DNA from: a virus
DNA length: 64,000 nucleotides
Direction: 5' to 3' (one strand)
IMG/VR virus record: IMGVR_UViG_3300018080_004265
Coordinates: 1-64,000 of that record
This document shows, piece by piece, positions 4,688 through 34,791 of this stretch. How positions within the stretch are numbered: position 1 is the stretch's first letter; each line of letters opens with the position of its first letter. The translations under genes were made by a program, and so were the position numbers. A model generated the notes under the pieces. It saw only the letters and a program-made list of their open reading frames with translations, was not told the DNA's origin and made no database searches.

Positions 4688-4710
4688 AATAAAGTCAAGG
4701 AGAGATGTTA

Positions 4711-7956: not shown

Positions 7957-9453
7957 ATGACCCCCGTAGATATTGAGACTTTTTTATATGGTAAAGACTA
8001 TATGAATTTGTCTCCAGATAAAGATCATCCATTAAGATTATCTGATGAACAAATGCGTGTTTTACGAGAACTTGATGATGATAATCCAGATACAAATAAG
8101 ATTATAGAAGCGGTATTAGTTTGGGGAAAAGGATCTGGTAAAGATTGGATAACATCGATCTTTTTCTGTAGAAGAGTCTATAAATTATTATGTTTAGCAA
8201 ATCCTCAGAAATTTTACGGTATGCCAGCCGGTGAACCTATGGAATTTTTGAATGTTGCAGTATCTGCTGAACAAGCTAACTCAGTATTCTTTTTTAAATT
8301 GACTAATATGATAAAAGAAGCTGGGCCATTAGCATTCAAACAATTTGGATTTGATAAAAATAAAGATATATTATCGAATAAAATAATTTTCCCTAAAAGT
8401 ATAATATTACATAGTGGACATAGTGAACAAGCGTCCTTAGAAGGTAAGAACTTATTTGCAGCTGTTATGGACGAAGCCGCTGAGTTTAAAACTGAAGCTG
8501 AATTAAGAGGTAAAGGACATAGAGCTAAAAAATCAGCTCCAGCAATTTATAGATTTTTAGCTTCATCAATTCGTTCGCGTTTCCCAACAGTTGGTAAATT
8601 AATAATTATATCTTATCCTCGATTTGCTAATGATTTTATTTTACAAAGATATGAGATTGGAAAAAATGCTCCTGACACTTTAACAAGTTTTGGGACAACA
8701 TGGGAAATAAATCCCCTAAGAAAAAGGGATGATTTTAATAAAGATTATAGAGAAAATCCAGAGCAAGCTCGAAGTCAATACGAATGTGTTCCTCCAATGG
8801 CAAAAGAACCATTCATTAGAGAATCAGAAAAAGTTGATTTCATTATAGATAATATGATAAAATCTCCGTATGATTTATGGGGAACATATTATCCAGAATT
8901 TAGAGGTAAACCATATTCATATGCTGTTGGAGTCGACTTAGCATTAACTGGAGATAGAGTTGGGTTCGCATTAACGCACAAAGAACAACGGATACTTAAT
9001 GATACGAGAAAAGATATAGTTGTTCTTGATTTGTTAAAGACATGGGAAGCTGAACCCGGAAAAGAAATAGATCTCGATCTAATTACTAAAGAGATATTAT
9101 TTCTTCGATCAAGAGGCTTTAATATTATACAAATATTTTTTGATCAATTCCAAAGTGCACATATAATTCAACAATTAAGAAAGCTTGGATTTGCTGTTGA
9201 TAGATTATCAATAGAAACAAAATTAGATATATGGAATTCTGTTAAAACATTAATATATAATTACGAATTAAAAACTTATAAAAGTGAAGCAAGTTATTTA
9301 TTAATAGAAGAGTTAAAAGGATTAAGTTTATTTAATGGGAAAAAAGTTGATCATACAGATACTACTACAAAAGATTTGTCTGATGCAGTTGTAAGAGCGA
9401 TCCACGGGTTAGTACAAACAGGTGGTAGCGAGTTTGTGTTTAAGCCAGCGTAA
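7957..9453 (+). CDS. terL: Terminase large subunit
   Basis: A 498-residue DNA-packaging motor. The ATPase has Walker A-like VLVWGKGSGKDW (about residues 53-64) and Walker B FAAVMDEAAEF (about 165-172). The RNase H-like nuclease begins YAVGVDLALTGDRVGF (about 322 on) and has later acidic residues including FFDQF and a C-terminal DLSDA. The frame stays open and protein-like upstream of ATG 7957 back to an ATT at 7885. That ATT has AAGGTG seven bases upstream, whereas 7957 has only a weak site, so the true N-terminus may be 24 residues longer. No small terminase subunit is recognisable nearby. Confidence 0.95.
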   Translation: MTPVDIETFLYGKDYMNLSPDKDHPLRLSDEQMRVLRELDDDNPDTNKIIEAVLVWGKGSGKDWITSIFFCRRVYKLLCLANPQKFYGMPAGEPMEFLNVAVSAEQANSVFFFKLTNMIKEAGPLAFKQFGFDKNKDILSNKIIFPKSIILHSGHSEQASLEGKNLFAAVMDEAAEFKTEAELRGKGHRAKKSAPAIYRFLASSIRSRFPTVGKLIIISYPRFANDFILQRYEIGKNAPDTLTSFGTTWEINPLRKRDDFNKDYRENPEQARSQYECVPPMAKEPFIRESEKVDFIIDNMIKSPYDLWGTYYPEFRGKPYSYAVGVDLALTGDRVGFALTHKEQRILNDTRKDIVVLDLLKTWEAEPGKEIDLDLITKEILFLRSRGFNIIQIFFDQFQSAHIIQQLRKLGFAVDRLSIETKLDIWNSVKTLIYNYELKTYKSEASYLLIEELKGLSLFNGKKVDHTDTTTKDLSDAVVRAIHGLVQTGGSEFVFKPA

Positions 9454-18847: not shown

Positions 18848-20500
18848 ATGGCATTTCGCGATGGATTTAATCAAACTATGAATAAAGCTTTTGGGCATTC
18901 ACAAGTGTCTGCACGCCCATCTATTGTTACATCTGGAAGTTCAATGGAAAAGTCCATGCGAGCCTATTTACCTACATACCGTGATGATGCTCGATATGGA
19001 CAACCACCAGAAGAAGGCTTTGAATACAAACTTAGAACTTCTTTATTGCGTAAAATGTATGAAAGAAATGTTGTTGTTCGTGCGGCAATAGATACTATTA
19101 TTAATGAAGTTGTATCTGCAAAATTTGAAATTAAACCAATAAATCCAGATGAAAAAGTTAGTCCAGAAAAAAAATCACAACAAGATAAAAAAATAAAAGA
19201 AATAGAAGATTTTTTTAATCATCCAAATGAAAATAGAGAATCATTTCGTATTTTATTAGAAAAAATGATGTGGGATCTTCTAGTATTTGATGCTGGTGTC
19301 ATAGAAAAAGTTAGAAATGTTGGCGGAGATAAATTAAAAGAAATTTATGCGATACCTGGAGATACAATAAGAATTAAAGTAGATGAACATGGTAAAATAT
19401 TAGGGTATTGGCAAGTATTAGATGGTACAAAACGACCACCTAAGTTTTTTAAATCAGATAATATTATATATATCGTAATGAATCCGCGTTCTCATACACC
19501 TTATGGATTTTCTCCATTACATACATTGGAGAATATGGTAACAGCTTTCTTATATTCAGAACATTACAATGTTAAATATTTTGAAAATAATGCTACACCA
19601 AGGGGAATATTAGAACTTGGAGCTATTAATGAAGGTCAATTAGATAGATTTAGAGAATATTGGAGGCAAGAAAATCTTCAGCAACCACATCGTGTAATGG
19701 TTGTTTCCAATCCGCATGCACACGAAGGCAAAGGCGGAATCAAATGGATTCCTTTAGCGTTAAATGCTAAAGATATGGAGCTAATGCAATATTTAAATTG
19801 GTTAATGAAAATGATTCTTATGGTCTTTGGCGTTACGCCATCCGAGGTCGGCTTTGCGGACGAACTTAGAGGTGCACCTGCTCTTGGCCAAGTCCTCCAA
19901 TCTCAAGCTTTTAAAAATAAAGCAATCTTTCCTATGATGGATAGAATTGCAAGATATTTTACTGAAGAAATTATTGTTTCTGAATTTGGGGCTAAAGATT
20001 TAATATTTGATTTTATTGAAGAACAATCAATTCAAGAACAATTACAAAAAGCCCAATTAGATTCATTGTTAATTCAATCTCAAATAATGACTGTTGAAGA
20101 AGTTAGAAAAGACCGTGGATTAGAAATTAAAAAAGGAAGAGGAGTTCCTGGTCTTGAGGGCATTCTCGCTGGATTGCAAGGTAAACCTGCGCCTGGTGAA
20201 GAAGCAGTAATGGGAATTGAAAACGAACCAACAATTGTAGACACCGCATTTAAGCAGTTAAAAGAAGCAGTATATAATCATTTAGGTCTTGATGAAAGTG
20301 TCGAGTCGAAGCCTGGCGTGCCTGAGACATTGGATGGCGCGTACAATGAGCTAAAAGATTCGATTGAAGCATATATTGGGCAGAAGAAAACTGGAGAAAC
20401 TGGAAGTCTTATTGAAGATGCTTTTCATCGATTAGTTAGAGAAATTAAACTTATGACTACAATGAAGCATATAGATGGTATTTTAAGTGGGAACCGCTAA
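18848..20500 (+). CDS. Portal protein
   Basis: A 550-residue protein with portal features. The N-terminal part includes RKMYERNVVVRAAIDTIINE. The clip/stem region includes GDTIRIKVDEHGKILGYWQV, DNIIYIVMNPRSHTPYGFSP and LNWLMKMILMVFGVTPSEVG. There is a conserved QSQ-containing helix near residue 355, and a C-terminal helical and acidic extension follows from about residue 420. Twelve copies form the packaging ring at the capsid vertex. It is followed directly by a small gene, MuF-like and protease genes as expected for a head module. Confidence 0.93.
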   Translation: MAFRDGFNQTMNKAFGHSQVSARPSIVTSGSSMEKSMRAYLPTYRDDARYGQPPEEGFEYKLRTSLLRKMYERNVVVRAAIDTIINEVVSAKFEIKPINPDEKVSPEKKSQQDKKIKEIEDFFNHPNENRESFRILLEKMMWDLLVFDAGVIEKVRNVGGDKLKEIYAIPGDTIRIKVDEHGKILGYWQVLDGTKRPPKFFKSDNIIYIVMNPRSHTPYGFSPLHTLENMVTAFLYSEHYNVKYFENNATPRGILELGAINEGQLDRFREYWRQENLQQPHRVMVVSNPHAHEGKGGIKWIPLALNAKDMELMQYLNWLMKMILMVFGVTPSEVGFADELRGAPALGQVLQSQAFKNKAIFPMMDRIARYFTEEIIVSEFGAKDLIFDFIEEQSIQEQLQKAQLDSLLIQSQIMTVEEVRKDRGLEIKKGRGVPGLEGILAGLQGKPAPGEEAVMGIENEPTIVDTAFKQLKEAVYNHLGLDESVESKPGVPETLDGAYNELKDSIEAYIGQKKTGETGSLIEDAFHRLVREIKLMTTMKHIDGILSGNR

Positions 20501-21541: not shown

Positions 21542-22876
21542 ATGGGTACGTTAGATAGAACATACAAAGATATTTTAAAGCAATTTTTTCCTGAGACGTC
21601 ACATAAAATACCTATTTATAAAACTATGTCAACGACAGTTGGTAAACCAAGAGGTCCACTTACTGAAGAGCATAAGCGCCATATTAGCGAATCATTAAAA
21701 AAGAAATATGGTGCCACTAATTATGATGAAATATTTAAACGTTTTATTAGTGAAAATTACGGTATTATTGGTAATGTCGTAAAAAAATATCAACCTTATG
21801 CCGATCGAGATGATTTGATTCAAGAAGCATTGGTTAAGGTATATGAAAATTTTCATAGATATGATCCAGATATTTCTAAACCTACTACTTGGTTAAATCA
21901 AGTAGTTAGTGGACATTTACATGGATATATTACTCCTCAAGAATTAAAAAGGCATGGGGCTTATGTAAAAATGGTAACTTTTAAAAGAATTGCTGCAAAA
22001 TTCCTAAAAGATACTGGAAAAGAAGCAACAAATGAAGATATTTCTCGTATCTCAGGAGAACCTCTTGAAAAAGTAAATGTTATTTTAAATCTTTCCAAAC
22101 CCGTACTTCAATTAGATCAACCAATGAAATTCGGCGATGATGATAATATGTTATTAGGAGATACGCTTGAAGTCATTGGCCCATCACCAGAAGATATTGT
22201 AGAAAGAATAGAGGCAAAAGAAATGATTAATCAAGCAATAGATCAGTTAGATGATAGAGAGAAAGTAGTTATATTAGAAAATACTGGATACAAAACTGGC
22301 GAACCTAAAAATGATTCTGAAGTTGCAAGAATATTAAATATTTCAAGTGTATATGTAAAAAAGATAAGGGAAAAAGCATTTGATAAAATGAAAAGATTTT
22401 TAAAGAAAAAAGAATATGTTGCAAAATCAGAAGATACTCCAGATAAAATTATTCTATATTTAGCAGGAATAGAACAAGCGATTAATCAATTAAATGATAA
22501 AGCAGTTATTAAATCAATGGTCACTTCATTATTAACTGCTATTAGTAAAAAAGAAATTAAAAAAACATATAATCCAATAAGAATTAGACAAAGAGATCCA
22601 AAAATATTTAATAAAGATACCATGAGAACAATAAGTTTATCAAAAAGTCTTGGTATTCAAGCGGTTATTGGTGAATTACCAAACGATAAAAGAACAAGAG
22701 TTCAAACACTTATATTCAATAGAACTCCCGATGAAGGCAAAACATGGGATTTAAAAGAAGCAAAATCATGGGTAAAAGCGCATAAAGAAAGGATAAAAGT
22801 AAGTTTAGATTTAAAAGAATTATTAGAAAAAACTAAAAAAATTATCGATAAACAAATAGAAGAAGAGGTGAAATAA
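21542..22876 (+). CDS. Sigma-70-family protein with phage C-terminal extension
   Basis: A 444-residue protein. Residues ~1-45 hold an IPIYK start-like motif, GKPRGP and a NUMOD3-like LTEEHKRHISESLKKKYG. Sigma region 2 follows (DRDDLIQEALVKVYENFHRY, then PTTWLNQVVSGHL), then a region 3-like helix (GKEATNEDISRISGEP) and region 4 with helix-turn-helix (INQAIDQLDDREKVVI, then DSEVARILNISSVYVKKI). The last ~140 residues are unlike sigma factors and include RTPDEGKTWDLKEAKSWVKA, a motif I associate with phage head/protease C-termini. It lies in the head operon between MuF and protease. It may direct late transcription or be packaged. Confidence 0.82.
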   Translation: MGTLDRTYKDILKQFFPETSHKIPIYKTMSTTVGKPRGPLTEEHKRHISESLKKKYGATNYDEIFKRFISENYGIIGNVVKKYQPYADRDDLIQEALVKVYENFHRYDPDISKPTTWLNQVVSGHLHGYITPQELKRHGAYVKMVTFKRIAAKFLKDTGKEATNEDISRISGEPLEKVNVILNLSKPVLQLDQPMKFGDDDNMLLGDTLEVIGPSPEDIVERIEAKEMINQAIDQLDDREKVVILENTGYKTGEPKNDSEVARILNISSVYVKKIREKAFDKMKRFLKKKEYVAKSEDTPDKIILYLAGIEQAINQLNDKAVIKSMVTSLLTAISKKEIKKTYNPIRIRQRDPKIFNKDTMRTISLSKSLGIQAVIGELPNDKRTRVQTLIFNRTPDEGKTWDLKEAKSWVKAHKERIKVSLDLKELLEKTKKIIDKQIEEEVK

Positions 22877-24852
22877 TGTTTAATCCGATATTTAAAGGAA
22901 AAATATCGAAAAGTGATAGTGACAAATCTGATAATAAATTTTTTATTCAAGGATATATGTCAAAACCAGTAGTTGATTTAGAAAATGAAATAGTTGATAC
23001 TTCGGCTTATGATGATGCTATTGATACTGTTCAACAACGATCAGCAGTTGGGAGACCAATTCCGATTTTCATTGAACATAGAAGAAAAGAATTAAGTTTA
23101 CCAGTTGGTAAAATTGTAGATGCTGGAAAAGATGATAAAGGATTGTGGTTTAAAGGAGAAATTGCTGGTGGAGTTATTGGACAACCAGTAAGAGATTTAA
23201 TTAAAGGTGGATATCTATATGGATGTTCCATTGGTGGAGATGCATTAAAAACAATTCCCTTTTATGATTCGAAATCTAGAAAGGACGTTCGAAAGATTAC
23301 GAAGATGGCATTCAGGGAACTGTCATTAACTGGACTTCCCGTCAACGAGGAAGCAGTTTTTTCAATTGCGAAAAGTTTAAATAAAGATGGAAGGGAGGTG
23401 AAGTTGTTAATGAACAAGTTGAATAAAGCCATCGACATGCAGCAAACGCTTAAAACTTTGGAAAAGGCTGTAGAGCCTGATAATTTAGATGAAGCAAGTC
23501 TAAACCGAATTAAAGAAGCGTTGAACAATTTAGCTAAATTGCTTAAGATAGATATTGCAGAAGGTGGAGGTGTTACTGGTGAAGGGGCCACTCCTGTAGA
23601 AGGAGCTGAAACTCCAACTCCAGAAGCACAACCTGCTGCTGATACAACAGCTGCTCCGGAACCAGCTGTTGCAGAACAAGCTCCTTCAGAAGAGGAGACA
23701 ACTGAAATAGAAGAAAAGAAAAAGAAACCAGAAGAAGAAGTAAAATTAAAAACTCCGGGTACGCCAGAAGAAGGATCAAAGCTTGATGAAATTAATTCTA
23801 AGCTTGATAAACTTTTGAGTATGGAAGCTACTGAAGAGGAAAGTAAATATTCTGAAGAAGATAATTCTGAAGATAATGATTCAGAAGAAAATGATTCTGA
23901 TGAAGATAATGATAGTGATGATGATGAAAATGGTAAAAAGAAAAAATTTCCTAAGAAAAAAGATGATGAAGAAAGGGGTGACAATATGGAGTACTTGAAA
24001 TGCAGAAAATGCGGAGCTAAATATGATATTACTAAATCATATGACGCGAAGTATTGTCCCGAATGTGGCGAAGAATTAGAAGCCGATCAATCTACTGAAA
24101 AAGCACTAGATACCGAAGGGCTATTTAGTGGGGACGATTTAATCTGTGAGGAATGCGGATCTGTTTTCGGAAAATCCGAAAAATATGAAGCTCACTACTG
24201 CCCTAAATGTGGTAAGTCGTTAGCTACTATTGCTGTAGCACCTCCTGCAAAAGGAGCTGATACAAAGCGTCCTGCTGAAAAGCAGATGCCTAAAGGAAAT
24301 GCTTCCCCAGAAGGCGGAGACAGAGTTGCTGTAGCGCCAAGTCCTAAAGGTGCTGATACAAGTTATCAAGATCCTTCAAATTCTGATGGATCTGGTATGG
24401 ATTGGAAAACACCAGACAAAGATATTGATAATTTAAGTAAAGGTGAGAATGCAGACGGTATGGAAAAAGATCTTTCGATCGATAAACCTGTAAAAGACAA
24501 CGCTAATAACGTTGCTTCTTATAAAGGAACTTATTACGTACCTGCTGATCAGAAAGAAGTTACAGATAGAAAAGGATCTGATCTCAACGAATCTCGTCCA
24601 GCTGGAAAACCTATGTTAGGGGCTGATAATCCGGACAAGTATACACAGTACGGAAAAGACAGAATGGGTAAGAGTATGGATGAAAGATTGAGTTCAATCG
24701 AAAAAACGATTGAAAAAGTCCTTGATAAATCTGAAGGAAGAAAATCTGAAATTCCTGGTGAAGGTATTGAGAAGTCTCAAACAGCTTCTGTTCCTTCCCA
24801 AGAATCTATGGATAGAAACTTTGCACAATATTTGTTAGGTTCAAAGAAATAA
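22876..24852 (+). CDS. Prohead protease-scaffold fusion with two zinc ribbons
   Basis: A 658-residue protein. Residues 1-170 are an S78-type prohead protease with His in IFIEHRRKELSLPVG (about 64-78), Ser in YGCSIGGDA (about 115-123) and a typical FRELSLTGLPVNEEAVF end. Residues ~180-365 form a helical then very acidic, Pro/Glu/Ser/Asp-rich scaffold. Two Cys4 zinc ribbons follow (CRKCG...CPEC near 375-395; CEECG...CPKC near 424-446), then low-complexity linker and a C-terminal coiled coil (MDERLSSIEKTIEKVLDK). Two strong internal ribosome binding sites suggest nested products. Zinc ribbons in a scaffold are unusual. Confidence 0.88.
   Translation: MFNPIFKGKISKSDSDKSDNKFFIQGYMSKPVVDLENEIVDTSAYDDAIDTVQQRSAVGRPIPIFIEHRRKELSLPVGKIVDAGKDDKGLWFKGEIAGGVIGQPVRDLIKGGYLYGCSIGGDALKTIPFYDSKSRKDVRKITKMAFRELSLTGLPVNEEAVFSIAKSLNKDGREVKLLMNKLNKAIDMQQTLKTLEKAVEPDNLDEASLNRIKEALNNLAKLLKIDIAEGGGVTGEGATPVEGAETPTPEAQPAADTTAAPEPAVAEQAPSEEETTEIEEKKKKPEEEVKLKTPGTPEEGSKLDEINSKLDKLLSMEATEEESKYSEEDNSEDNDSEENDSDEDNDSDDDENGKKKKFPKKKDDEERGDNMEYLKCRKCGAKYDITKSYDAKYCPECGEELEADQSTEKALDTEGLFSGDDLICEECGSVFGKSEKYEAHYCPKCGKSLATIAVAPPAKGADTKRPAEKQMPKGNASPEGGDRVAVAPSPKGADTSYQDPSNSDGSGMDWKTPDKDIDNLSKGENADGMEKDLSIDKPVKDNANNVASYKGTYYVPADQKEVTDRKGSDLNESRPAGKPMLGADNPDKYTQYGKDRMGKSMDERLSSIEKTIEKVLDKSEGRKSEIPGEGIEKSQTASVPSQESMDRNFAQYLLGSKK
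23410..24852 (+). CDS. Probable nested scaffold product (internal start)
   Basis: In-frame ATG 23410 is preceded by AAGGGAGGTGAA at 23391-23402, as good as any ribosome binding site in the window. It lies exactly where the protease domain ends and the scaffold begins (product starts MNKLNKAIDMQQTLKTLEKA, helical). An in-frame TTG at 23404 is a second option. Known phages such as lambda (C/Nu3) make the scaffold from an in-frame internal start, so the same arrangement is inferred here. Confidence 0.5.
   Translation: MNKLNKAIDMQQTLKTLEKAVEPDNLDEASLNRIKEALNNLAKLLKIDIAEGGGVTGEGATPVEGAETPTPEAQPAADTTAAPEPAVAEQAPSEEETTEIEEKKKKPEEEVKLKTPGTPEEGSKLDEINSKLDKLLSMEATEEESKYSEEDNSEDNDSEENDSDEDNDSDDDENGKKKKFPKKKDDEERGDNMEYLKCRKCGAKYDITKSYDAKYCPECGEELEADQSTEKALDTEGLFSGDDLICEECGSVFGKSEKYEAHYCPKCGKSLATIAVAPPAKGADTKRPAEKQMPKGNASPEGGDRVAVAPSPKGADTSYQDPSNSDGSGMDWKTPDKDIDNLSKGENADGMEKDLSIDKPVKDNANNVASYKGTYYVPADQKEVTDRKGSDLNESRPAGKPMLGADNPDKYTQYGKDRMGKSMDERLSSIEKTIEKVLDKSEGRKSEIPGEGIEKSQTASVPSQESMDRNFAQYLLGSKK
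23986..24852 (+). CDS. Possible nested zinc-ribbon product (internal start)
   Basis: A second in-frame ATG at 23986 follows AAAGGGGTGACAAT (23973-23985), nearly the same ribosome binding sequence as the major capsid gene (AAGGGGTGAAATTAAA). The product would begin MEYLKCRKCGAKYD and contain both zinc ribbons plus the coiled-coil tail, without protease and acidic scaffold. Precise placement at the domain boundary argues against chance. Expression is unproven. Confidence 0.45.
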   Translation: MEYLKCRKCGAKYDITKSYDAKYCPECGEELEADQSTEKALDTEGLFSGDDLICEECGSVFGKSEKYEAHYCPKCGKSLATIAVAPPAKGADTKRPAEKQMPKGNASPEGGDRVAVAPSPKGADTSYQDPSNSDGSGMDWKTPDKDIDNLSKGENADGMEKDLSIDKPVKDNANNVASYKGTYYVPADQKEVTDRKGSDLNESRPAGKPMLGADNPDKYTQYGKDRMGKSMDERLSSIEKTIEKVLDKSEGRKSEIPGEGIEKSQTASVPSQESMDRNFAQYLLGSKK

Positions 24853-25405: not shown

Positions 25406-26379
25406 GTTTTACACGCCAATGTAAAACCCTGAAGAATTGCTGGAAAGTCTTAAAGTCTATCTACTACAACGTAATTTCTTATATAGAAGTAAGCGTGAAT
25501 TGTTTGAAAAATGATAGAATTATGCAATTTGCATAAATAGACAATCAGCAGCCGAGCCCGAAAGGGAAGGTTCAGAGACTATGTATCGGGGATGTTTAAC
25601 AAAACATAAGATATAGTCCGAACTATATGGAGACATATAGAATTATCCAGAAATGAGATAATCTTTAAATAGAATATGGGGTTAAGATAAGAAGTCATGA
25701 GCTTATCGATGGAGCCCAAACTCCAAACCCCACCAATCTTTTGGGAGGTTGAAATGAATGAATTCGTTATATGTGAAATTTGTAGTCAGAAACTAAAAAG
25801 AATTACAAATACTCATTTAAAGCAACATAATCTAACATTTAAAGAATATATTGAATTATACCCTAATTCAAATACAACTTCTAAAATTGTTAGAGATAAA
25901 ATAAGTAAAAACGGAAAAGGAATAACAGGAAGAAAAGCAGGATTTAAGCATAACAAAAAGCATAAAAAGTTAATAAGTAATTTAATGAAAAATAGAAAAA
26001 TTACTTGGAAAGATAAGATAAGAGAGACAATTCAAGATTATTACGATAATAATACTTTAATTGGATGGAAAAGTAAAGAATGTTATGAAAATAAGCCAGA
26101 ATATATGAAGAATATATTCTATGGGAATGAATGGCTGAGTATTCGGTCAAAAGTTAAACAAAGAGATAAATTTATTTGTCAAGATTGTAAAAAGAAAGAA
26201 AATAAATTAGCTGTTCATCACATAATTCCTTTTAAGCATTACTTATTAAAGCACAATGGTAGTTTAGAAAAAGCTAGAAAAGACGCACATAAATTGAAAA
26301 ACTTAATTACCTTATGTTTTAGCTGTCACATGAAAAGAGAAAGACGAATTCAAAAATCTATTTAATAGTAACAAAATTG
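25406..26379 (+). ncRNA. Group I intron 1 in the capsid gene
   Basis: A 974 nt intron. P1 pairs exon ATTGGT with GCCAAT (25415-25420). P10 pairs TTTACA (25408-25413) with TGTAAA of exon 2 (26381-26386). The 3' end is G26379. Core sequence before the ORF includes GAAGGTTCAGAGACTATG and AAGATATAGTCC, the P3/P7 type blocks of td-like group IA introns. The frame is restored exactly on removal, and the joined codon TAT fits between exon 1 Trp and exon 2 Val. It encodes an HNH endonuclease at 25754. Confidence 0.92.
25754..26365 (+). CDS. Intron-encoded HNH homing endonuclease
   Basis: A 203-residue protein. The N-terminal CEICSQKLKRITNTHLKQHN and the following FKEYIELYP resemble a MucR/Ros-type zinc finger, and GKGITGRKAGFKHNKKHKK is a basic linker. 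The HNH core is CQDCKKKENKLAVHHIIPF, with NLITLCFSCH as the last part. ATG 25754 is chosen because GGGAGG lies five bases upstream; an upstream in-frame ATG at 25697 lacks this. The ORF ends 14 bp before the 3' splice site. It is expected to cut intron-less capsid genes and spread the intron. Confidence 0.9.
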   Translation: MNEFVICEICSQKLKRITNTHLKQHNLTFKEYIELYPNSNTTSKIVRDKISKNGKGITGRKAGFKHNKKHKKLISNLMKNRKITWKDKIRETIQDYYDNNTLIGWKSKECYENKPEYMKNIFYGNEWLSIRSKVKQRDKFICQDCKKKENKLAVHHIIPFKHYLLKHNGSLEKARKDAHKLKNLITLCFSCHMKRERRIQKSI

Positions 26380-26639
26380 ATGTAAACGACCACAGATTGG
26401 CGTTTAATGGTTTGAGAAAAGTTGCTTGTGGTACTCAGGTAGACGCTGGATCTGGTGCTCTTACTCTTGCTGATATCTCTACAGGTATTCAAAATTTAGA
26501 CGTTTTCGGACGTGATAAATCAGAACTTCTGTTAGTTGTATCTTTGAGAGAAGAAAACACTTTGAGACAGTTGTTAGGTATCAACCTTGCTGTTAACCAG
26601 CTTGGATTAACTGGTACTGCACTTCCGGGTGAAATCGGT
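26380..26639 (+). CDS. Major capsid protein, exon 2
   Basis: A 260 nt middle exon encoding VNDHRLAFNGLRKVACGTQ, a Gly/Asp-rich segment, then SELLLVVSLREENTLRQLLG and QLGLTGTALPGEIG. The 3' boundary at T26639 is set by P1 of intron 2 (AAATCGGT 26632-26639 with GCCGATTT 26667-26674). Its first two bases complete a Tyr codon begun in exon 1. The typical capsid continuation GxxWGVPVV is found only in exon 3, confirming splicing. Confidence 0.92.
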
Positions 26640-27602
26640 AGACACAGTAAATTACCCAATTACTTTGCCGATTTAAAAACTCGTAAATTCGGTGGAACTC
26701 CAGAAATGGACAATACCGAGCCAAGCCTTGTAATTAAATTACTCGGAAGGTGTAGAGACTATACACGAGTCATTTTAGAAAATATTTCTAAAATTGAAGA
26801 TATAGTCCGAACTGCATATAAATCATTAATGATGAAATTGCAGAGCATAGCAGAAATGACTATGCCTCAAGAATTTAATATGGGTCTAAGTTTAGCCTAA
26901 TTAACTAAACGACGGTGCTTGTATCACCAAGACCCACCTAATCTTATACAAGGAGATTAAAATGGTTGCAAAAGGTTCTAAATTATCAGAGGAAACAAAA
27001 AGAAAAATAAGTGAAAGTGTAAAGAAAAAGTTTAAAGAAAGTCCTGAAATTATTGAAAATGGTGTTAAAAAATGGAAAAAATTTTTTAATACAAAAGAAG
27101 GAAAAATAATTTGGGAAGAAAAAAATAAAAAAGTTAGTAATACAATGAAAGGAATTAAAAAGAAGCCTTTCACTAAAAAACACAAAGAAAACATAAGCAA
27201 AGCAACAAAAAGACAATATAAAGAAATGTTTCCTTGGGGTAAACGAAAATCATCAAAAATTCATTTAAAGTTACAAAAACAATTATATAAATACACTGAT
27301 AATTTTATATCAGAAGAATTTATAAGATTAAAAGAATTAGAAAAATGGATTTGTGTTGATGAACTTGATAGAAAAAATAAAATTGCAATATTTATAGATG
27401 GCGAACATTGGCACGCAAGAAATTATAAAGATAATTATATTGTTCGACCTCTAAATAAAACTGCAAAAGAAATAAGAAATAAAGACAAGATAGAAACAAA
27501 ATGTCTTATTTCAAAAGGATATCAAGTTTTAAGATTTTGGGATACCGAAATTGAAAGTAATTTAGAACAATGTATTAATAAAATTCTTGAAGTAACAAAA
27601 TG
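26640..27602 (+). ncRNA. Group I intron 2 in the capsid gene
   Basis: A 963 nt intron. P1 has eight pairs ending in U-G. P10 pairs TACTTT (26661-26666) with AAAGTA of exon 3 (27603-27608). The core includes GAAGGTGTAGAGACTATAC and GAAGATATAGTCC near 26746-26810, close to intron 1. The intron ends at G27602. The open frame runs on from exon 2 for 87 codons into the intron before a stop, which would mislead an annotator. It encodes a Vsr-like endonuclease at 26962 whose stop codon spans the 3' splice site. Confidence 0.92.
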
Positions 27603-27603
27603 A
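26962..27603 (+). CDS. Intron-encoded homing endonuclease (NUMOD3 + Vsr-like)
   Basis: A 213-residue protein. NUMOD3-type motifs are at the N-terminus (KLSEETKRKISESVKKKF, FTKKHKENISKATKRQ). The C-terminal EDxHD/Vsr-like nuclease contains IAIFIDGEHWHARNYKDN, then RNKDKIETKCLISKGYQVLR and FWDTEIE. SD AAGGAG before ATG 26962. The stop TGA (27601-27603) uses the last two intron bases and the first base of exon 3, so the spliced mRNA destroys the stop. It belongs to the I-Bth0305I-like group, unlike the HNH enzyme of intron 1. Confidence 0.9.
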   Translation: MVAKGSKLSEETKRKISESVKKKFKESPEIIENGVKKWKKFFNTKEGKIIWEEKNKKVSNTMKGIKKKPFTKKHKENISKATKRQYKEMFPWGKRKSSKIHLKLQKQLYKYTDNFISEEFIRLKELEKWICVDELDRKNKIAIFIDGEHWHARNYKDNYIVRPLNKTAKEIRNKDKIETKCLISKGYQVLRFWDTEIESNLEQCINKILEVTK

Positions 27604-27845
27604 AAGTATGGGGCGTTCCAGTTGTAGCAACAAACTTATTGAGGGTTAGTGATACTAATACTTCAGAAGCTCTGTTGTTAAATAGAAACGCTGCGGTTAT
27701 CGGCGACAGACGTATTTTCACTATCAAGTCTTCGGATGAGGTATTGTTACGTTCTGACCAGTTGTTAATCGTTGCTTCTGAAAGATTGGCATTTAATGCA
27801 CAATACTGTGAAGCAATCACTAAGATCGTTAACATCGCTAGCTAA
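27603..27845 (+). CDS. Major capsid protein, exon 3
   Basis: A 243 nt final exon encoding KVWGVPVVATNLLRV, LLLNRNAAVIGDRRIFTIKS and ASERLAFNAQYCEAITKIVN, ending TAA. WGxPVV followed by NRNA and a DR stretch is the standard end of HK97-fold capsid proteins. An ATG at 27600 creates a false start because its last two bases are intron sequence. Confidence 0.92.
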   Translation, partial: KVWGVPVVATNLLRVSDTNTSEALLLNRNAAVIGDRRIFTIKSSDEVLLRSDQLLIVASERLAFNAQYCEAITKIVNIAS

Positions 27846-27920: not shown

Positions 27921-28355
27921 ATGACATTAGTAATAACAGATATGAATTTAATTTTGAATTGGAAAAAAGATAATAAAACATATAAAATAGTAAAAGATCT
28001 TCAAATAGATTTACCAGATGAAGCAATTAGCTATTTAAAAAAAGTATATCCAAAAAATAATATAGTAAATATATTAGATAGACCAAAAAAAGATCTACCT
28101 CCAATTGCTAAAGAGCCAATCGAAATTAAAACTACACCTGATGAAGTTACTAATTTAGAAGATCTTGTAGAAGATAAAAAAGAAGAAATAGATATTAAAT
28201 CTATTATAGAAGATGCTATAAAGAAAAAAATAATTATACAAAATGGAATGTGGTATCAATACAATGGCAATAATATTTGTAGAGGTATCAATAAATTAAA
28301 AAATGCATTAAAACAAGATTCTATATTATTAAATGAAATTAGGGGCAAACTATGA
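27921..28355 (+). CDS. Hypothetical protein after capsid
   Basis: A 144-residue protein with SD AGGAG. An N-terminal part starting MTLVITDMNLILNWKKDN is followed by a Pro-rich acidic linker and a helical C-terminus (IIQNGMWYQYNGNNICRG near residue 105). Small post-capsid proteins with a beta-rich start can be head fibre or adaptor components, but no family is recognised. The stop overlaps the next gene. Confidence 0.58.
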   Translation: MTLVITDMNLILNWKKDNKTYKIVKDLQIDLPDEAISYLKKVYPKNNIVNILDRPKKDLPPIAKEPIEIKTTPDEVTNLEDLVEDKKEEIDIKSIIEDAIKKKIIIQNGMWYQYNGNNICRGINKLKNALKQDSILLNEIRGKL

Positions 28356-28609
28356 TAGATGCTAAATCTTTAATATGTGATTCAAACAATAAACTTTCAA
28401 AAGGTAATATTATGTGTTGGATATCTTTTTTCTTTTTAATGGGGTTAATTGTAGCCAATTTAAAAGGAATAAATATATCGACAGATGCTTTTGAAACTTT
28501 AAAATATATTTTTACAACAACTTTTATTTATAGTGGTTGGAAGAAAGGTACAGATGTTTTTAAAGACGTAGAAATCACTAAAAATGGATTTTCAGCCAAA
28601 AAGGAATAA
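28352..28609 (+). CDS. Small two-helix membrane protein
   Basis: An 85-residue protein overlapping the previous stop (ATGA). One strong hydrophobic segment (MCWISFFFLMGLIVANL, about residues 21-37) and a weaker one (FETLKYIFTTTFIYSGW, about 47-63) with a charged C-terminus. Two-segment small membrane proteins in phages are often holins, but its place in the head-neck region is odd for one. Confidence 0.6.
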   Translation: MIDAKSLICDSNNKLSKGNIMCWISFFFLMGLIVANLKGINISTDAFETLKYIFTTTFIYSGWKKGTDVFKDVEITKNGFSAKKE

Positions 28610-28612
28610 AGA

Positions 28613-29755
28613 ATGAAATCATCTTATACTTGGGATCTAAATACAGATAATGCAAGTGAATATATATATGATGCATCTAAGCTAGAATTTACAGCTAATG
28701 GTGTGCGTAGATTATATCCTGCAAGTCCTGATACTCCATATGTTATTAATTCAGAAGGAATTTATTTTACTATATTAAATAAATTTACATGTACAGTATA
28801 CGGGACAACATCACAAGAACAAGTTAGATTCCAATTAAGTAACGATGGTGAAACTTGGTATTATTATGATCAATTACAAACGCAATGGGTAGAATCTGGA
28901 ACAGTTTCTACTTCTGCTGAAATTGTATCTGGATCAAACACTGCAAATGAATTAACTAGTAGTATATTTGAAAAATTTGTTTATGATATTGACGCTGGCA
29001 GTCTTTATTGGAAAGCATATTTATTTCAAGATGTTGAACTTTCAACAGTATCTTTTAATTATGAACAATATTATACAACAATTAAAAAAATAAGACAATT
29101 AATGGCACCGTATGGATTAAGAGCAAGAGATCCAAATACTGGTGAATATTGTGAAGATGAAGATTTTTTATCTGATGCAACACTAAAAGATTATTTAATT
29201 CTTGCTGATAGTTATTTAAATAATTTATTATTTAGAGATTTTTATTATCATAGAGATGTTGTAGAATTCCATGATGGTAATGGGAAAGAATCTTTAACTA
29301 CATATTATTTCCCAATTACAAAGATAACACGTGTAATAATGTATAATCAATTATTACAAGCGATGAGAACATTTTTAGATTCCGAGTTAATAGTACATCC
29401 CGAATGGGGTGAATTGTTCTTGCCTCCTGCATATCCAGCATATTTATCAGATAGACCATCAAGAGGTATATTTGGGAATATCTTTATTCCCGGAAAAAGA
29501 AATGTAGAAATTAAATATGATTATGGATATGAGACGCCACCTGATGATATAGAGATGGCAGCAAGAAAATATATAGGTACACAAGTATTAAATGCTTATT
29601 GGGCATGGATAACACGAGGAATCCAAAGCAGAAGCTTTGATGGTTATTCTGAATCTTATATGCAAAAACCATTTACTGGCATATGGGAACAATGGAATAA
29701 AGAAGTTAATGATATTATAGAACGTAGAAGAAGACAATTTCAGAGGTCAATATAA
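28613..29755 (+). CDS. Head-tail adaptor-like protein with N-terminal beta domain
   Basis: A 380-residue protein. The N-terminal ~155 residues are beta-rich and read like a sandwich domain (YGTTSQEQVRFQLSNDGETW, YDIDAGSLYWKAYLFQDVEL). From about residue 160 a helical part (KKIRQLMAPYGLRARDP, TLKDYLILADSYLNNLLFRD) and a beta segment (YFPITKITRVIMYNQ, YDYGYETPPDDIEMAARKYI) match the layout of connector proteins that bind under the portal (gp6/gp15-like). The position right after the capsid module fits. The domain call is moderately sure. Confidence 0.65.
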   Translation: MKSSYTWDLNTDNASEYIYDASKLEFTANGVRRLYPASPDTPYVINSEGIYFTILNKFTCTVYGTTSQEQVRFQLSNDGETWYYYDQLQTQWVESGTVSTSAEIVSGSNTANELTSSIFEKFVYDIDAGSLYWKAYLFQDVELSTVSFNYEQYYTTIKKIRQLMAPYGLRARDPNTGEYCEDEDFLSDATLKDYLILADSYLNNLLFRDFYYHRDVVEFHDGNGKESLTTYYFPITKITRVIMYNQLLQAMRTFLDSELIVHPEWGELFLPPAYPAYLSDRPSRGIFGNIFIPGKRNVEIKYDYGYETPPDDIEMAARKYIGTQVLNAYWAWITRGIQSRSFDGYSESYMQKPFTGIWEQWNKEVNDIIERRRRQFQRSI

Positions 29756-31980
29756 TGCTTATAAATAAATCATTAATAGACGACTTAAGTGAAGGAGTCG
29801 TTTATGAACTTGAAAAAGCGATTCCTGGCATGCCTAAATTACCAAAACCTGGTAAAATAGGCGGACAACCTGATTTAGATAAGAAAAAAGTTGGAGATAT
29901 CGTTCAAAGACACGGGAAAGATTATAGAATTACAGCTATAAACCCAACAAAAACTGGGTGGGGACGTTTTAAATTAGAAGCAGTTACTAAAAAACCAGAA
30001 GATGAAGCTGCTAAAAGAGAAGCGCGTCCAGAAGAAACTGGAAAACCTACTGCTATTAAACAAATGGGACAACAAGTAAAAGATCTTTATTCTAAAGTAA
30101 AAGAAAAATTAGGGGAAAAACAAAAACCAACTGTAACACCGCCTAAAGAAAAACCAAAAGAAAGACCAATGATCCCTAAAACATCGGCAGAAGTACAACA
30201 AGCTGATATAAATACTTTAAAAGGGACAATGGATTATCTTTCTAATTTAGAAAATAAAATGAATGCTACAAAAACATCTCCAGAACTGGCAAAATTAAAA
30301 CAAGATGTTGTAGATAATTATATAGTTAAAATGAGAGATAAACTTAAACAAAAAATGGGATCTCGTTTTGTTGAATACAAACCAACTGGAAAACCAGGAG
30401 CAGCAGCTGCAGCTGTGAGTTATGAAGATTTACAAAATAAAGTTAAACAATATGAAGATAAAATGTCTGCTGGTCAATATTTAGATCCTCTTGAAAATAA
30501 AGAATATAAGAGAATGAGTAAACAGCTTAATGATATAGAAGATAATAGAATTAAAGCAATGCAAGCTGCTAATCAAAAAATGATGCAAGAAGAACGTGCT
30601 AAAAAAGCAAAAGAATTTGGTGAGAAATTAGCACGTGGTGAAAAACCATTTCCTGAAAGAACTGATAAACATAAAATTGAAGAAGTTAAGTTAACAGATA
30701 AAGATAAACAAGAAGATCTTAGCACCTTTGTTATGACTCGTTATAGAGATGATACTGGAAAATCATATTCATTAGATCAAGTACAAGCTAATAATAAAAA
30801 AGTTGTAGATAGTTTTGTAAAACAAAATGGGTTAAAGATTCCTAAAGATTCTATTAATTATGTTAAAGGTGAAATTAGAATACCATTTAATTCAAAAACT
30901 ATTAAAGAAATAAGTGGAACACTAAAAGAAAATTATGGATCAACTGATAATGATTATATATCTTTTGAAAAAGGTACTCCTGGTGAAGATTCAATTTTAA
31001 AGATCAAAAAAGTTGGCGGAATTAATTGGGAAATTAAACCATTACCAGAACAATCATTAGCTGATTCAATAAATACAGTTTCTGATATGTATGATAAACA
31101 AGCAAAATCTGGAAAGAGAAAAGAATACAGATTTTTATTTGCTCCAGATCAAGCATTATTTAATCCGCCAGATTCTCCTGAAGGTCAATCAATGACATTT
31201 ATTCAAGGTGGTATGAGATCTGGTAAAGGATTAATGTTTGGTACAATGATGAATCAAGCTCTTGGAAGTGCTGATGGATCTGTTGTTAAATTTTATAATT
31301 TTGATCCAACTGGTGCTTTTTGGAATGACATGAAAGATGTTAATCCAAATGTTATTAAACAAATGGATAAAAAAGGATTAGTTGGTCATAATGGTGTTGC
31401 AACAGATAATATAGTTAAGATGCCACCAGATAAACAAGCTTCTGCTGTTAAATCATATGTAGATAATTTTGTTAATAAATATAATGAAGTTTATAGCGAA
31501 CGAGCAGCAATGATGGAACATTATGGCGTTGGTCATATTGGGAAAATAAAAGATCAACAAATTCCTCAAGCAGTATTTAATTTTGATGAAATGCAACAAT
31601 TTGAAGGTATTATTCAAAAAAATACTGCATTATCTAAAGGTGAGAAAAAAGAATTATTAAATAAAATAACTGGAGTAATGGCATCACAAAAAACAACAGG
31701 AAAAAAACTTGGTATAACAATGAATGTTGTTTGTCAAAATGGATTTGATAGTGATCAAATGACTAGTATTTCTGGTGCAGCTGGAAATCATTTATTATCA
31801 TTAGATGGAAAAGCAGATTTAAGATCTTTTGGCAGTGCTAGAGGATTTACAAGTGCAGTGACAAGGGCAAATATTGGAAATGCAATAGTTGCTGAAACAA
31901 GAAAGCCAGATCAGAATCCTAGACTATTAAATCCAATAGTTCCTGGTGTTGGTACAGCAACTGCATTAAAAGGTAAATAA
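29755..31980 (+). CDS. FtsK/HerA/VirD4-type P-loop ATPase
   Basis: A 741-residue protein. The N-terminal portion has an LPKPGKIGGQPDLDKKKVG tag-like segment and a small barrel-like stretch (VGDIVQRHGKDYRITAINP). A long Lys/Glu/Pro-rich coiled coil follows to about residue 320. The C-terminal ~270 residues form an ATPase with Walker A FIQGGMRSGKGLMFG (about 480-494) and Walker B QAVFNFDEMQQFE (about 602-614). A Gln-containing motif NVVCQNGFDSDQM lies further on. This layout is typical of DNA or protein translocating ATPases such as FtsK, HerA or VirD4. It is not a terminase, which lies at 7957. A role at the neck or in ejection is inference. Confidence 0.75.
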   Translation: MLINKSLIDDLSEGVVYELEKAIPGMPKLPKPGKIGGQPDLDKKKVGDIVQRHGKDYRITAINPTKTGWGRFKLEAVTKKPEDEAAKREARPEETGKPTAIKQMGQQVKDLYSKVKEKLGEKQKPTVTPPKEKPKERPMIPKTSAEVQQADINTLKGTMDYLSNLENKMNATKTSPELAKLKQDVVDNYIVKMRDKLKQKMGSRFVEYKPTGKPGAAAAAVSYEDLQNKVKQYEDKMSAGQYLDPLENKEYKRMSKQLNDIEDNRIKAMQAANQKMMQEERAKKAKEFGEKLARGEKPFPERTDKHKIEEVKLTDKDKQEDLSTFVMTRYRDDTGKSYSLDQVQANNKKVVDSFVKQNGLKIPKDSINYVKGEIRIPFNSKTIKEISGTLKENYGSTDNDYISFEKGTPGEDSILKIKKVGGINWEIKPLPEQSLADSINTVSDMYDKQAKSGKRKEYRFLFAPDQALFNPPDSPEGQSMTFIQGGMRSGKGLMFGTMMNQALGSADGSVVKFYNFDPTGAFWNDMKDVNPNVIKQMDKKGLVGHNGVATDNIVKMPPDKQASAVKSYVDNFVNKYNEVYSERAAMMEHYGVGHIGKIKDQQIPQAVFNFDEMQQFEGIIQKNTALSKGEKKELLNKITGVMASQKTTGKKLGITMNVVCQNGFDSDQMTSISGAAGNHLLSLDGKADLRSFGSARGFTSAVTRANIGNAIVAETRKPDQNPRLLNPIVPGVGTATALKGK

Positions 31981-31982
31981 TA

Positions 31983-32741
31983 ATGGCAGAATGTACTTCA
32001 ACTAGAGTTAATGCGATCAAAGGCATGGTTGATAGAGGTGGTGTTTACGTCACTATCTATAATGCTGAACCTTGTACTGGTGATCAAATAACAGTTAATA
32101 ATGAACTTCAACAGTTTAATTATGAATTAACTGGCACTAATAGCGTGATCCTGTATGGGTATGAGAGTCTTATTGGGGCTAAAGTAGATTGGGATCTAAG
32201 TGGAACTGAAGTAGTATCTGGATCCATGGTAGTAACAGATGCGTCTGGAGTTACTGGATATAATGAAAATATTGATTATACAATGGATTATGAAAATGGC
32301 ACTTTAACTAGAACAGATACTGGATTATTACAAGACTTATCAATTATAAAAATAAATTATACATGGCATTTTGATTGTGTAGATGAAAAAACTGGATCTC
32401 CGTTTAGATATTGTACAACATGTATAGATCCAGATCAAGGTAATTTTCCAACAGGTGTAATATATACAAATTCGACTAGAATGAAAGCTTTATTTCATAT
32501 TCCAAATTATAATTCTCCTTTTGAAAAAATTGGCGTATGGAAATTAGGTGATGGTGTAGTAACAGTACCTTATGATGTTCAAGTAAATGCTAAAAATCAT
32601 GAAGACGGTGGATTTTTCTGTCAAGATAAAATAAAAATTGATGGACAACCAGGAATTTGGAAAGTTATGTCTCTCCCACAGACCATACAAATGGGGGAAT
32701 TCTTGGGTAAAAGAATTCATGTCAGAAAGATAGATTTTTAA
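31983..32741 (+). CDS. Neck/tail protein, unknown
   Basis: A 252-residue beta-rich protein with an internal NIDYTMDYENGTLTRTD unit ending IIKINYTW. This is the same small beta module found in baseplate proteins downstream. Cysteine pairs occur (RYCTTCIDPD). The C-terminal part (KIKIDGQPGIWKVMSLPQTI) resembles the end of head-tail joining proteins. It lies between the ATPase and an ART-like gene in the neck region. I cannot name the family. Confidence 0.6.
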   Translation: MAECTSTRVNAIKGMVDRGGVYVTIYNAEPCTGDQITVNNELQQFNYELTGTNSVILYGYESLIGAKVDWDLSGTEVVSGSMVVTDASGVTGYNENIDYTMDYENGTLTRTDTGLLQDLSIIKINYTWHFDCVDEKTGSPFRYCTTCIDPDQGNFPTGVIYTNSTRMKALFHIPNYNSPFEKIGVWKLGDGVVTVPYDVQVNAKNHEDGGFFCQDKIKIDGQPGIWKVMSLPQTIQMGEFLGKRIHVRKIDF

Positions 32742-32742
32742 C

Positions 32743-33300
32743 ATGACTATATATAAATACGTAGTAGATGAAAATATAAATAAAGCAAAAAAGCCAGTTA
32801 AAGTTAGATCAAAAACTGGTAAAGTGTTTACTCAAATGAGAGAAGAAGGTAAAGGAGCTAAAACAAAAACTCCTAAAATTCTTTATCATGTAGCATTTAC
32901 TGAAAAAGTTCCTAAGATAAAAGAAGAAGGAGTTAGACCATTACAACCAACAAATTGGGTTCAAGCAGGTAATAAGAAAAGATATGGTGGTGGAGAAGTA
33001 TATGCGTTTGAACATCCAGAAGATGCTTTTCGATGGGCAGCTAAAATGGATTGGGAATTTAATAAAGAGATGGGCAGTGGAAAAATTTCTGTAGTTAGAG
33101 CTAAAAATGATGAAGAATGGGAAATAGATGAAAATGATCCAATGAGTCAAGCCGGTTCAAAAGGTAATTGGCTTAAACATGATTTAGGAATCAAAAAAGA
33201 AAATATACAAGATGCTGTACCATTAACAATAGATATTACAAGAAAAATAACTGCAGGAGATACTGAAAAATTAGATTCATTATTTAAAAAGGAAAAATAA
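32743..33300 (+). CDS. Tagged protein with ADP-ribosyltransferase-like fold (putative)
   Basis: A 185-residue protein. The lead MTIYKYVVDENINKAKK and the basic KVRSKTGKVFTQMREEGKG are in the style of the tagged proteins at 6-14 kb. The body starts ILYHVAFTEKVPKIKEEGVR and continues with GGGEVYAFEHPEDAFRWAAK and ISVVRAKNDEEWEID. This is the order of His-strand, helix, YAFE-type strand and later acidic segment seen in ART-like domains of phage MuF-type effectors. Catalytic identity is uncertain. A virion-delivered effector is an inference from tag and location. Confidence 0.5.
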   Translation: MTIYKYVVDENINKAKKPVKVRSKTGKVFTQMREEGKGAKTKTPKILYHVAFTEKVPKIKEEGVRPLQPTNWVQAGNKKRYGGGEVYAFEHPEDAFRWAAKMDWEFNKEMGSGKISVVRAKNDEEWEIDENDPMSQAGSKGNWLKHDLGIKKENIQDAVPLTIDITRKITAGDTEKLDSLFKKEK

Positions 33301-33758
33301 TGGCTTTAAAAGATAATGATGCGTTACAGGCTAGATTTGATAATATTGTTCATGAAGAAATGGAACAAGGAGTTGGAATTGTAGTTGAAACAATTCAAGA
33401 AGTTGGGATAAGACGAAGAACTGGTAATTTATTAAATTCAGTTAGATATGTTGGTGAAGTTGAAGCGATGACACATAGAATTGTAGTTGGTGCTCCTTAT
33501 GCATCATATTTAAATAGAGGATATGGCGAATTTAGTTTGGTTCCGGGAAGATTGGGAAAAACAATTCCATTAAGAGATGCAACTGGTAAATTAATATTTC
33601 GTAGAGTATCAACAAGGCCAACATCAACAGGAAAAAATTGGACACATCCAGGATATGAAGGAAAAAATTTCGTGGATATAGCAAAAGAAAAAATTTATAA
33701 AAATATTGTTGTTCGTGTTGAACAGTTTTTAAATGATATTGATCCGGAGGATATGTAA
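33300..33758 (+). CDS. HK97 gp10-like neck/tail protein
   Basis: A 152-residue protein. RRRTGNLLNSVRYVGEVE and VVGAPYASYLNRGYGEFSLV are the recognised core of HK97 gp10-like proteins, which join head and tail or complete the tail top. A helical C-terminus with an acidic end (FLNDIDPEDM) follows. It starts on the last base of the previous stop and its own stop overlaps a homing endonuclease start. Confidence 0.85.
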   Translation: MALKDNDALQARFDNIVHEEMEQGVGIVVETIQEVGIRRRTGNLLNSVRYVGEVEAMTHRIVVGAPYASYLNRGYGEFSLVPGRLGKTIPLRDATGKLIFRRVSTRPTSTGKNWTHPGYEGKNFVDIAKEKIYKNIVVRVEQFLNDIDPEDM

Positions 33759-34234
33759 TGAGAAAAGCCTGGAATAAAGGGTTAGTAGTAGAAAATTATC
33801 ATACAGATGAAGTTAAAAAAAGAATTGGTGAAGCTTCAAAAAAAAGATGGGCAAAAACAAGTTATAGAAATATGATATATAAATCTATGCGTAATGCATT
33901 TAATAATAAATGTACTTCTATTGAAATAAAAATACAAAAAGCATTGAAAGATAAAAACATTGATTTTGAAATCAATAAGCCATTAAGTGGATTACCAGAT
34001 ATATTTATAAAACCTAATATTTGTATTTTTGCAGATGGTGATTATTGGCATTGCAATCCAATTAAATATCCTAATGGACCAATAAATAATTATCAAAAGA
34101 CAAGAATAGAAAAAGATAAAAGAATTAATAGAATATTGAAATCAAATAAGTATAAAGTTTTAAGGTTTTGGGAGAATGATATAAAAAATAATTGGGGTAA
34201 ATGTGAAAAAAAATTAATGGGGGCTATCTACTAA
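33758..34234 (+). CDS. Free-standing Vsr-like homing endonuclease
   Basis: A 158-residue protein. A short NUMOD-like N-terminal stretch (DEVKKRIGEASKKRW) is followed by a Vsr/EDxHD-type nuclease: TSIEIKIQKALKDKNIDFEI, GLPDIFIKPNICIFADGDYW, HCNPIKYPNG, and RINRILKSNKYKVLRFWEND. It is wedged between the gp10-like and tail-terminator genes with one-base stop/start overlaps at both ends, so it exploits the existing translation coupling. It is unlike the host-type Vsr repair enzyme in lacking an adjacent methylase. Confidence 0.88.
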   Translation: MRKAWNKGLVVENYHTDEVKKRIGEASKKRWAKTSYRNMIYKSMRNAFNNKCTSIEIKIQKALKDKNIDFEINKPLSGLPDIFIKPNICIFADGDYWHCNPIKYPNGPINNYQKTRIEKDKRINRILKSNKYKVLRFWENDIKNNWGKCEKKLMGAIY

Positions 34235-34791
34235 TGAGTATCGTGGATGCAAAATATGCAATATGGCGAACATTACATGATGCTTATAAAGAATTAAATG
34301 AGCAGCATCCAGATAAAATAGATGTAAAAGTAACTATGGCTTATCCAAGAACTGTTGAGGAAATCGATAAAAGAGCTATAATTACTGTTGCACGAATAAA
34401 TGCTCCGGAAGAAACGAGATTTGTTTCTGATTTGCTATACGAAGAATTACAAACAAATGAAATGCAAAATCAAAGGGGGACATTTCAAACTGATATTTTC
34501 GAAGTAGCAATTTGGACATTGGATCCTCAATATAGAGATGATTTATATTTATTAACAAGACAACTATTATTTGAAAAAAAGAAAACTGAATTATTAGAAA
34601 AATTTAAATTTATTAAATTTTACAGAATAGGGGGAAGTGATCAAGAATTAGATGTAGCAAAATTGCCACGTACAATATACAGAGCAGTATTAACTTATTT
34701 GACAACAACTCAATTAGAATACCAAACATTATATGATTTAGTAGAACAAATAACTGTTAGTACTTTAGTGGTTACGGGAGATATAGTTTAG
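34234..34791 (+). CDS. Tail terminator-like protein
   Basis: A 185-residue protein in the standard place between the gp10-like gene and sheath. Its layout fits terminator proteins: an N-terminal helix (MSIVDAKYAIWRTLHDAYKE), VKVTMAYPRTVEEI strand, a TFQTDIFEVAIWTLDPQYRD segment, then LLTRQLLFEKKK helix and a final strand. Terminators cap the tail tube and sheath at the head side. Assignment relies mainly on order and length. Confidence 0.65.
   Translation: MSIVDAKYAIWRTLHDAYKELNEQHPDKIDVKVTMAYPRTVEEIDKRAIITVARINAPEETRFVSDLLYEELQTNEMQNQRGTFQTDIFEVAIWTLDPQYRDDLYLLTRQLLFEKKKTELLEKFKFIKFYRIGGSDQELDVAKLPRTIYRAVLTYLTTTQLEYQTLYDLVEQITVSTLVVTGDIV

Follow-up and report, generated by a model that had tools for sequence, protein, structure and literature searches.

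Why would a tailed phage with an ordinary terminase keep a second motor-like ATPase among its neck genes? The question is raised by the virus record IMGVR_UViG_3300018080_004265 of IMG/VR, which has 152,375 bases and of which the first 64,000 were analyzed (hereafter, the window). In reviews, HerA/FtsK pumps form the packaging class of membrane-containing viruses and are contrasted with the machinery of portal-terminase phages (PMC5512222, PMC7824862). The initial annotation had described an FtsK/HerA-type ATPase at 29755-31980, located amid neck genes in addition to a normal terminase, and had quoted a Walker A (GGMRSGKG), a Walker B (FNFDEMQQ), and an N-terminal LPKPGKIGG. The open reading frame and the motifs were found as quoted, and the adaptor, Neck1, and terminase genes agreed with the described setting (Table 1). 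The product of the gene (hereafter, the ATPase) is placed here in the FtsK-HerA superfamily with moderate confidence. Judged from its sequence and genomic setting, the ATPase is most likely a virion-carried pump of the head interior that acts on DNA at ejection, and this reading is held tentatively.

Single ATPase sequences gave no significant match to PHROGs, Pfam, NCBIfam, or PDB sequences. The best Pfam match of the ATPase domain was FtsK_SpoIIIE (E 0.18), well under the cut-off. When the whole 152-kb record was searched with PF01580, the ATPase was the sole place found (8.9 bits), and the scores obtained with this model (8.9 to 11.6 bits) stayed below the curated cut-off of 24 for the FtsK/SpoIIIE family. 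The HerA model (PF01935) had no match anywhere in the record. For two members, Pfam weakly suggested DEAD helicase instead, which was rejected; the match was confined to the P-loop stretch.

For profile-profile comparisons with hhalign, the family profile had seven rows (six distinct) and the FtsK profile was made from 12 diverse domains (E. coli, plasmids, and phages). The two matched at 86% (E 5e-6) over 181 columns spanning all four nucleotide-site motifs. Subfamily II (L016, L027, and L049) alone matched the FtsK profile at 92% over the stretch from Walker A to DP, and subfamily I, which includes the window ATPase, at 70% over 185 columns. The control profiles reached 0.5% (RecA), 0.3% (DnaB, nine sequences), 0.7% (TerL), 8.8% (DnaC-like), and 0.1% (reversed FtsK), and 60 column-shuffled FtsK profiles scored at most 17.8 against 48.6 for the real one. 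The hhalign E-values are those of single comparisons, and the control profiles were mostly shallower than the FtsK profile, with the exception of DnaB. When FtsK profiles were made from just three sequences, seven of eight random draws beat every control of similar depth. With a small FtsK HMM, the L016 orthologue was ranked top among all proteins available from these phages (E 3e-5). With single sequences in place of profiles, FtsK came first at 14.6%, hardly over a DnaC-like protein at 13.7%. The profile evidence supports membership at the superfamily level and does not place the ATPase in the FtsK family proper (PF01580).

The nucleotide site agrees with this assignment. FtsK/SpoIIIE translocases, including the FtsK-like proteins of Bacillus and Mycobacterium phages, show the same succession of Walker A, strand-2 DPxx, DE Walker B, and strand-4 Gln, with the same first spacing; they differ from the window ATPase, which has no visible membrane or gamma domain and falls below the Pfam cut-off. 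By hand count, the Walker lysine and the DP are 26 residues apart in the window ATPase, the distant L016 orthologue, and E. coli FtsK, followed by 94, 91, and 98 residues to Walker B and 50, 43, and 36 residues from there to the Gln, respectively. Six residues (G490, K491, D517, G520, D611, and E612) were invariant among the seven aligned orthologues (six distinct), whose identities go down to 17%; together with the constraint on the ATPase domain, this speaks against a chance occurrence of the motifs. Walker B reads FNFDE or IHMDE, with the catalytic Glu directly after the Asp, and the end of strand 4 reads VVCQ or ITAYTQTP with the polar residue kept. The residue after the P-loop GK is Gly in subfamily I and T in subfamily II (canonical GKT). 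The FtsK/HerA type first proposed is thus upheld by the controlled profile match and the motif spacing, with Pfam remaining sub-threshold, and no placement in an unrelated P-loop family emerged.

Relatives were collected via the portal, the adaptor, the capsid protein, and the ATPase itself. The ATPase was present in 9/9 related contigs that covered at least part of the slot, the window record not counted (fragment L001, G003 [178 kb], G004, G005, L023, L026, G008 [113 kb], G009, and L049). Wherever these contigs reach far enough, the gene follows that of the adaptor and precedes that of the stopper; in G005, one homing endonuclease gene separates it from the stopper. Mobile insertion of the ATPase gene was considered and dropped, since every relative has the gene, unlike the neighboring homing endonuclease genes. 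Conservation beside portal and neck genes, and not in a replication module, holds for every related contig covering the slot. In six of the seven junctions examined, the stop codon of the adaptor gene overlaps the start codon of the ATPase gene (TAATG), so translation of the two is probably coupled.

Comparison of L027 with L049 gave a dN of 0.087 and a dS of 1.33 for the ATPase domain (dN/dS ~0.07), indicating strong purifying selection, and this domain is the most constrained part of the protein (dN 0.35 for the N-terminal 120 residues). The ATPases are basic (pI 8.9-9.9), which fits a location together with DNA; the adaptor, stopper, sheath, and presumed terminator have pI values of 4.8-5.0. 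No match to two orthologues was obtained by tblastn in 50,697 phage records, and in 84,980 prokaryote genomes, scans based on the alignment of the ATPase or of the portal returned no relative and no prophage. With no detectable relative in either set, the lineage is regarded as uncultured.

The N-terminus of the ATPase carries a short motif, recognized statistically and defined as hydrophobic-x-K-[A/S/G] within the first 25 residues. In the window phage, 17 of the 42 head/cargo proteins bear the motif, compared with 20 of the 148 remaining proteins (Fisher p 2.5e-4). By residue shuffling, 5.9 motif-bearing head/cargo proteins were expected, and 17 were reached in 0/2000 shuffles. The motif is carried by the capsid protein (LEKA), the portal (MNKA), the prohead protease (ISKS), and the ATPase (LEKA), among others, as well as by many cargo proteins in which IEKG, ISKG, or FEKG is followed by KPW..., KGPW..., or GGPGSGR; it is absent from the adaptor, stopper, and Neck1 of the window. 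Four relatives, examined out of sample, had 11/24, 16/53, 11/17, and 10/23 motif-bearing proteins against 2.4-6.8 expected (0/1000 shuffles matched), and three control stretches elsewhere in the relatives' genomes showed no significant motif excess. In six phages, the motif (T allowed as the fourth residue) showed a two- to fourfold excess in the C-terminal part of the prohead protease, which is scaffold-like, and the window protease has many hydrophobic-x-K-[ASGT] sites there. The ATPase orthologues keep the motif or a close variant (LEKA, IKKA, ILKA, ISKA, LEKA, and FPKA; YTKS in L049).

The LEKA segment is presumed to be a capsid-targeting or prohead-protease site. The prohead protease may cut after hydrophobic-x-K, or the motif may dock proteins onto the scaffold; because the ATPase bears the motif, we infer that it is a head-interior protein. 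The N-terminus had initially been likened to that of the tagged proteins, including a barrel-like stretch. The likeness holds for LEKA (residues 19-22), but the barrel (~42-78) was not detected in the tagged proteins; it has no clear relative other than the orthologues among the proteins of this phage group and was dropped as a shared tag. In subfamily II, this beta-rich stretch is swapped for a different element, RPHKYVKR...YKYWYKLPNGKL. The suggestion that the ATPase is carried in the virion receives indirect support from the motif that it has in common with head and cargo proteins.

Tagged genes with other contents were observed in the same genomes. At L009:3014-7500, several small genes have products that start with hydrophobic-E-K-G-G-x-G-S-G-R-[KRH] and continue with unrelated bodies; the array looks like a set of cassettes for head cargo, and the window also has this tag, at 13955-14197. 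The gene at 32743-33300 is inserted between the stopper and Neck1 and is not at that place in L016 or L026. Its product bears a tag (INKA, then KKPVKVRSKTGKVF), weakly matches the Tpt1/KptA family (E 0.1), and is a candidate injected ADP-ribosyltransferase-like cargo. A group 1 glycosyltransferase (4705-5859; PF00534 E 4e-11) is encoded among the cargo-like genes by the terminase and has MWKA at residues 9-12.

According to the tentatively favored reading, an FtsK-HerA-superfamily pump would be a fixed head component of this phage group. The ATPase would be produced together with the adaptor via the overlapping stop and start codons, and directed into the prohead by its N-terminal peptide, which the prohead protease would probably cleave after hydrophobic-x-K. 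In T4, SPN3US, and phiKZ, one prohead protease cleaves both capsid proteins and N-terminal targeting peptides (PMC7411985, PMC5694885). The T4 internal proteins and Alt, as well as the SPN3US and phiKZ ejection proteins, likewise have an N-terminal peptide and a characteristic residue two before the last of the motif. Their motifs (SxE in phiKZ, AxE in SPN3US) end in Glu, whereas the present one ends in Lys, and none of those proteins is an FtsK/HerA pump. The mature ATPase would be located with the DNA inside the head or by the portal-adaptor channel. At infection, it would exit through the tail or act at the channel, and ATP would drive the movement of phage DNA, or of cargo proteins bound to DNA, into the cell. 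The gene, its motifs, the superfamily-level similarity, the kept slot, the purifying selection, and the common N-terminal motif are observed in the sequences; cleavage, incorporation into the virion, a site by the channel, ejection, and ATP-driven movement are inferred. Help in the entry of DNA into the host, as initially suggested, is plausible as a hypothesis. The wider proposition, that terminase-bearing tailed phages can carry a second motor of the FtsK/HerA class in the virion as an ATP-driven ejection motor that powers the entry of the genome, or of cargo bound to DNA, is more doubtful. Nothing specific was found in favor of the conjugation-like effector exporter that had been offered as an alternative.

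Several points weigh against an ejection pump. The location beside the adaptor would also fit a protein acting only in assembly. The motif was first noticed in the very data in which it was then tested, and a cut between the K and A of LEKA in the capsid protein would shorten it by just some five residues, an odd outcome for a protease site. No ATPase fold was predicted with confidence by AlphaFold (mean pLDDT 45 both for the full protein and for the subfamily II domain). Finally, subfamily I, including the window ATPase, has a GKG Walker A without the Mg-binding S/T. ATP hydrolysis is therefore not assured, and some members of the subfamily may bind ATP without hydrolyzing it. Taken further, the missing S/T (in the window ATPase and its three nearest distinct relatives) and the lack of a confident predicted fold would suit a structural neck or head protein, serving as decoration or plug, with a degenerate P-loop that binds nucleotide or nothing. 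This is considered very improbable, given the canonical GKT of subfamily II, the invariance of G490, K491, D611, and E612, and the strongest constraint falling on the ATPase domain. Even less probable is an origin outside FtsK-HerA, in another P-loop family or through a chance motif match; the missing significant matches in Pfam, NCBIfam, PHROGs, and PDB sequences would be expected in that case, but the controlled profile-profile result and the first rank of the L016 orthologue in the FtsK HMM search speak against it.

The main rival, which we judge unlikely, is a motor that works at the assembly stage on the prohead or neck, e.g. loading tagged cargo via the portal or aiding the exchange of terminase for adaptor, and that is not needed at ejection. 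It would account for the co-translation with the adaptor and the strictly kept neck slot, and the tagged cargo set found across the lineage needs some loader. In T4, however, targeting peptides suffice to load cargo (PMC7411985), and the ATPase is basic with an N-terminus of the head-interior type, unlike neck proteins. That N-terminal motif, common to the ATPase and the variable cargo proteins, would suit an injected effector that acts on DNA in the host (protecting, positioning, or evicting it) and not on genome passage. P1 DarB, to which such an effector would be similar, is a SWI2/SNF2 helicase-methylase that guards DNA from restriction, whereas the ATPase is FtsK-HerA-like. The DarB gene is not known to lie between neck genes. 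DarB is a head component of P1 and an ATPase of the DNA-translocase type, and it provides a known case of a virion-carried DNA translocase used for protection (PMC5512222). Cargo genes, on the other hand, vary among the relatives and are mostly located upstream of the portal, whereas the ATPase gene is in every contig in a fixed adaptor-stopper slot, and an effector role is accordingly rated as improbable.

Among known particles, membrane-containing viruses offer a parallel in motor class with their HerA/A32-type packaging ATPases (PRD1 P9), which share the superfamily hallmarks, are virus-borne, and are tied to the particle. PRD1 has its ATPase in place of a terminase, whereas the window phage has a normal terminase besides. 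Four FtsK-like genes of cultured phages were inspected and all were outside neck modules, one by a relaxation protein and one near a Ku gene. The neck of Staphylococcus phage 812 (Herelleviridae) is similar in having a portal, an adaptor, a Cys-loop stopper, and a tail terminator, and the portal of the window phage is distantly related to Herelleviridae portals. The Cys...CxxC loop of the protein encoded at 31983-32741 resembles the tetra-Cys loop of Herelleviridae stoppers (PMC12886913) and, together with its position, makes it the probable stopper. No ATPase is among the described 812 neck proteins (PMC12886913), and in our literature search, incomplete in coverage, no tailed phage was described as having an FtsK/HerA ATPase in its neck or head. 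The ATPase would represent a known motor class at a new place, with a probable role in the particle. A lineage keeping both motor classes, in which the FtsK-like motor has a fixed place in the neck operon and bears a head-type tag, would blur the division of DNA-virus motors into two alternative classes (PMC5512222, PMC7824862) and would open the completion of genome entry in large tailed phages to direct tests. In addition, the hydrophobic-x-K head motif would supply a simple rule for listing the injected proteins of these uncultured phages.

Table 1. Features of the window discussed in the text (positions in the window; residues are those of the ATPase).
Feature	Position	Strand	Evidence or remarks
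Terminase large subunit, ordinary packaging motor	7957..9453	+	phrog_2 E 1.8e-21
Portal	18848..20500	+	phrog_12 E 3.4e-56; PF04860
Minor head protein	20702-21532		
Sigma factor	21542-22876		
Prohead protease with long C-terminal scaffold-like region	22876..24852	+	Peptidase_S78 E 2.6e-9
Head-tail adaptor	28613..29755	+	phrog_442 E 5.6e-7; TAATG overlap with ATPase gene
FtsK/HerA-like P-loop ATPase gene, neck slot	29755..31980	+	Open reading frame, ATG, 741 aa, pI 9.4; orthologues in same slot; FtsK profile match
N-terminal segment ending in LEKA (residues 19-22)	29755..29820	+	hydrophobic-x-K-[ASG] motif
Small beta-rich stretch, ~residues 42-78, KKVGDIVQRHGKDYRITAINPTKTGWGRFKLEAV	29878..29988	+	AlphaFold strands, pLDDT ~65
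Small alpha/beta domain before ATPase domain, residues ~341-430	30775..31044	+	AlphaFold pLDDT ~67-83, best-predicted stretch
Walker A GGMRSGKG, residues 485-492	31207..31230	+	
Strand-2 motif DPTG, residues 517-520	31303..31314	+	Aligns with DPK of FtsK
Walker B FNFDE, residues 608-612	31576..31590	+	Protein reads FNFDEMQQ
Strand-4 Gln 661 (ITMNVVCQ)	31735..31737	+	Aligns with Gln of ATQRP in FtsK
Probable stopper (head closure)	31983..32741	+	Position; Cys...CxxC loop in sequence
Neck1 / tail completion protein	33300..33758	+	phrog_5 E 5.4e-8
Probable tail terminator	34234..34791	+	Gene order only (precedes sheath)
Sheath	35052-36470		

The module around the ATPase gene consists of the head and neck genes of a contractile-tail phage, and its prohead protease is presumed to be the processing enzyme. 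The long acidic scaffold-like region fused to this protease contains zinc ribbons (residues ~371-455 of the protease), which are unusual for a scaffold. The sigma-70 factor (regions 2, 3, and 4), whose gene lies between those of the minor head protein and the protease, has counterparts at L010:13010-14446 and L026:8-934. With IYKT at residues 25-28, it nearly matches the head/cargo motif, and it could be delivered in the virion and redirect the host polymerase at once. The major capsid gene (24964-27845) is in at least three pieces, split by two homing-endonuclease-like open reading frames (25697-26365 and 26962-27603). The interruptions, probably self-splicing introns, are similar in L010 and L011, and the gene is uninterrupted in L026 and L027. 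Between the capsid protein and adaptor genes, positions 28352-28609 (also L026:4582-4839) encode a conserved protein of 85 aa that contains a hydrophobic segment, and the window copy has LSKG close to its start.

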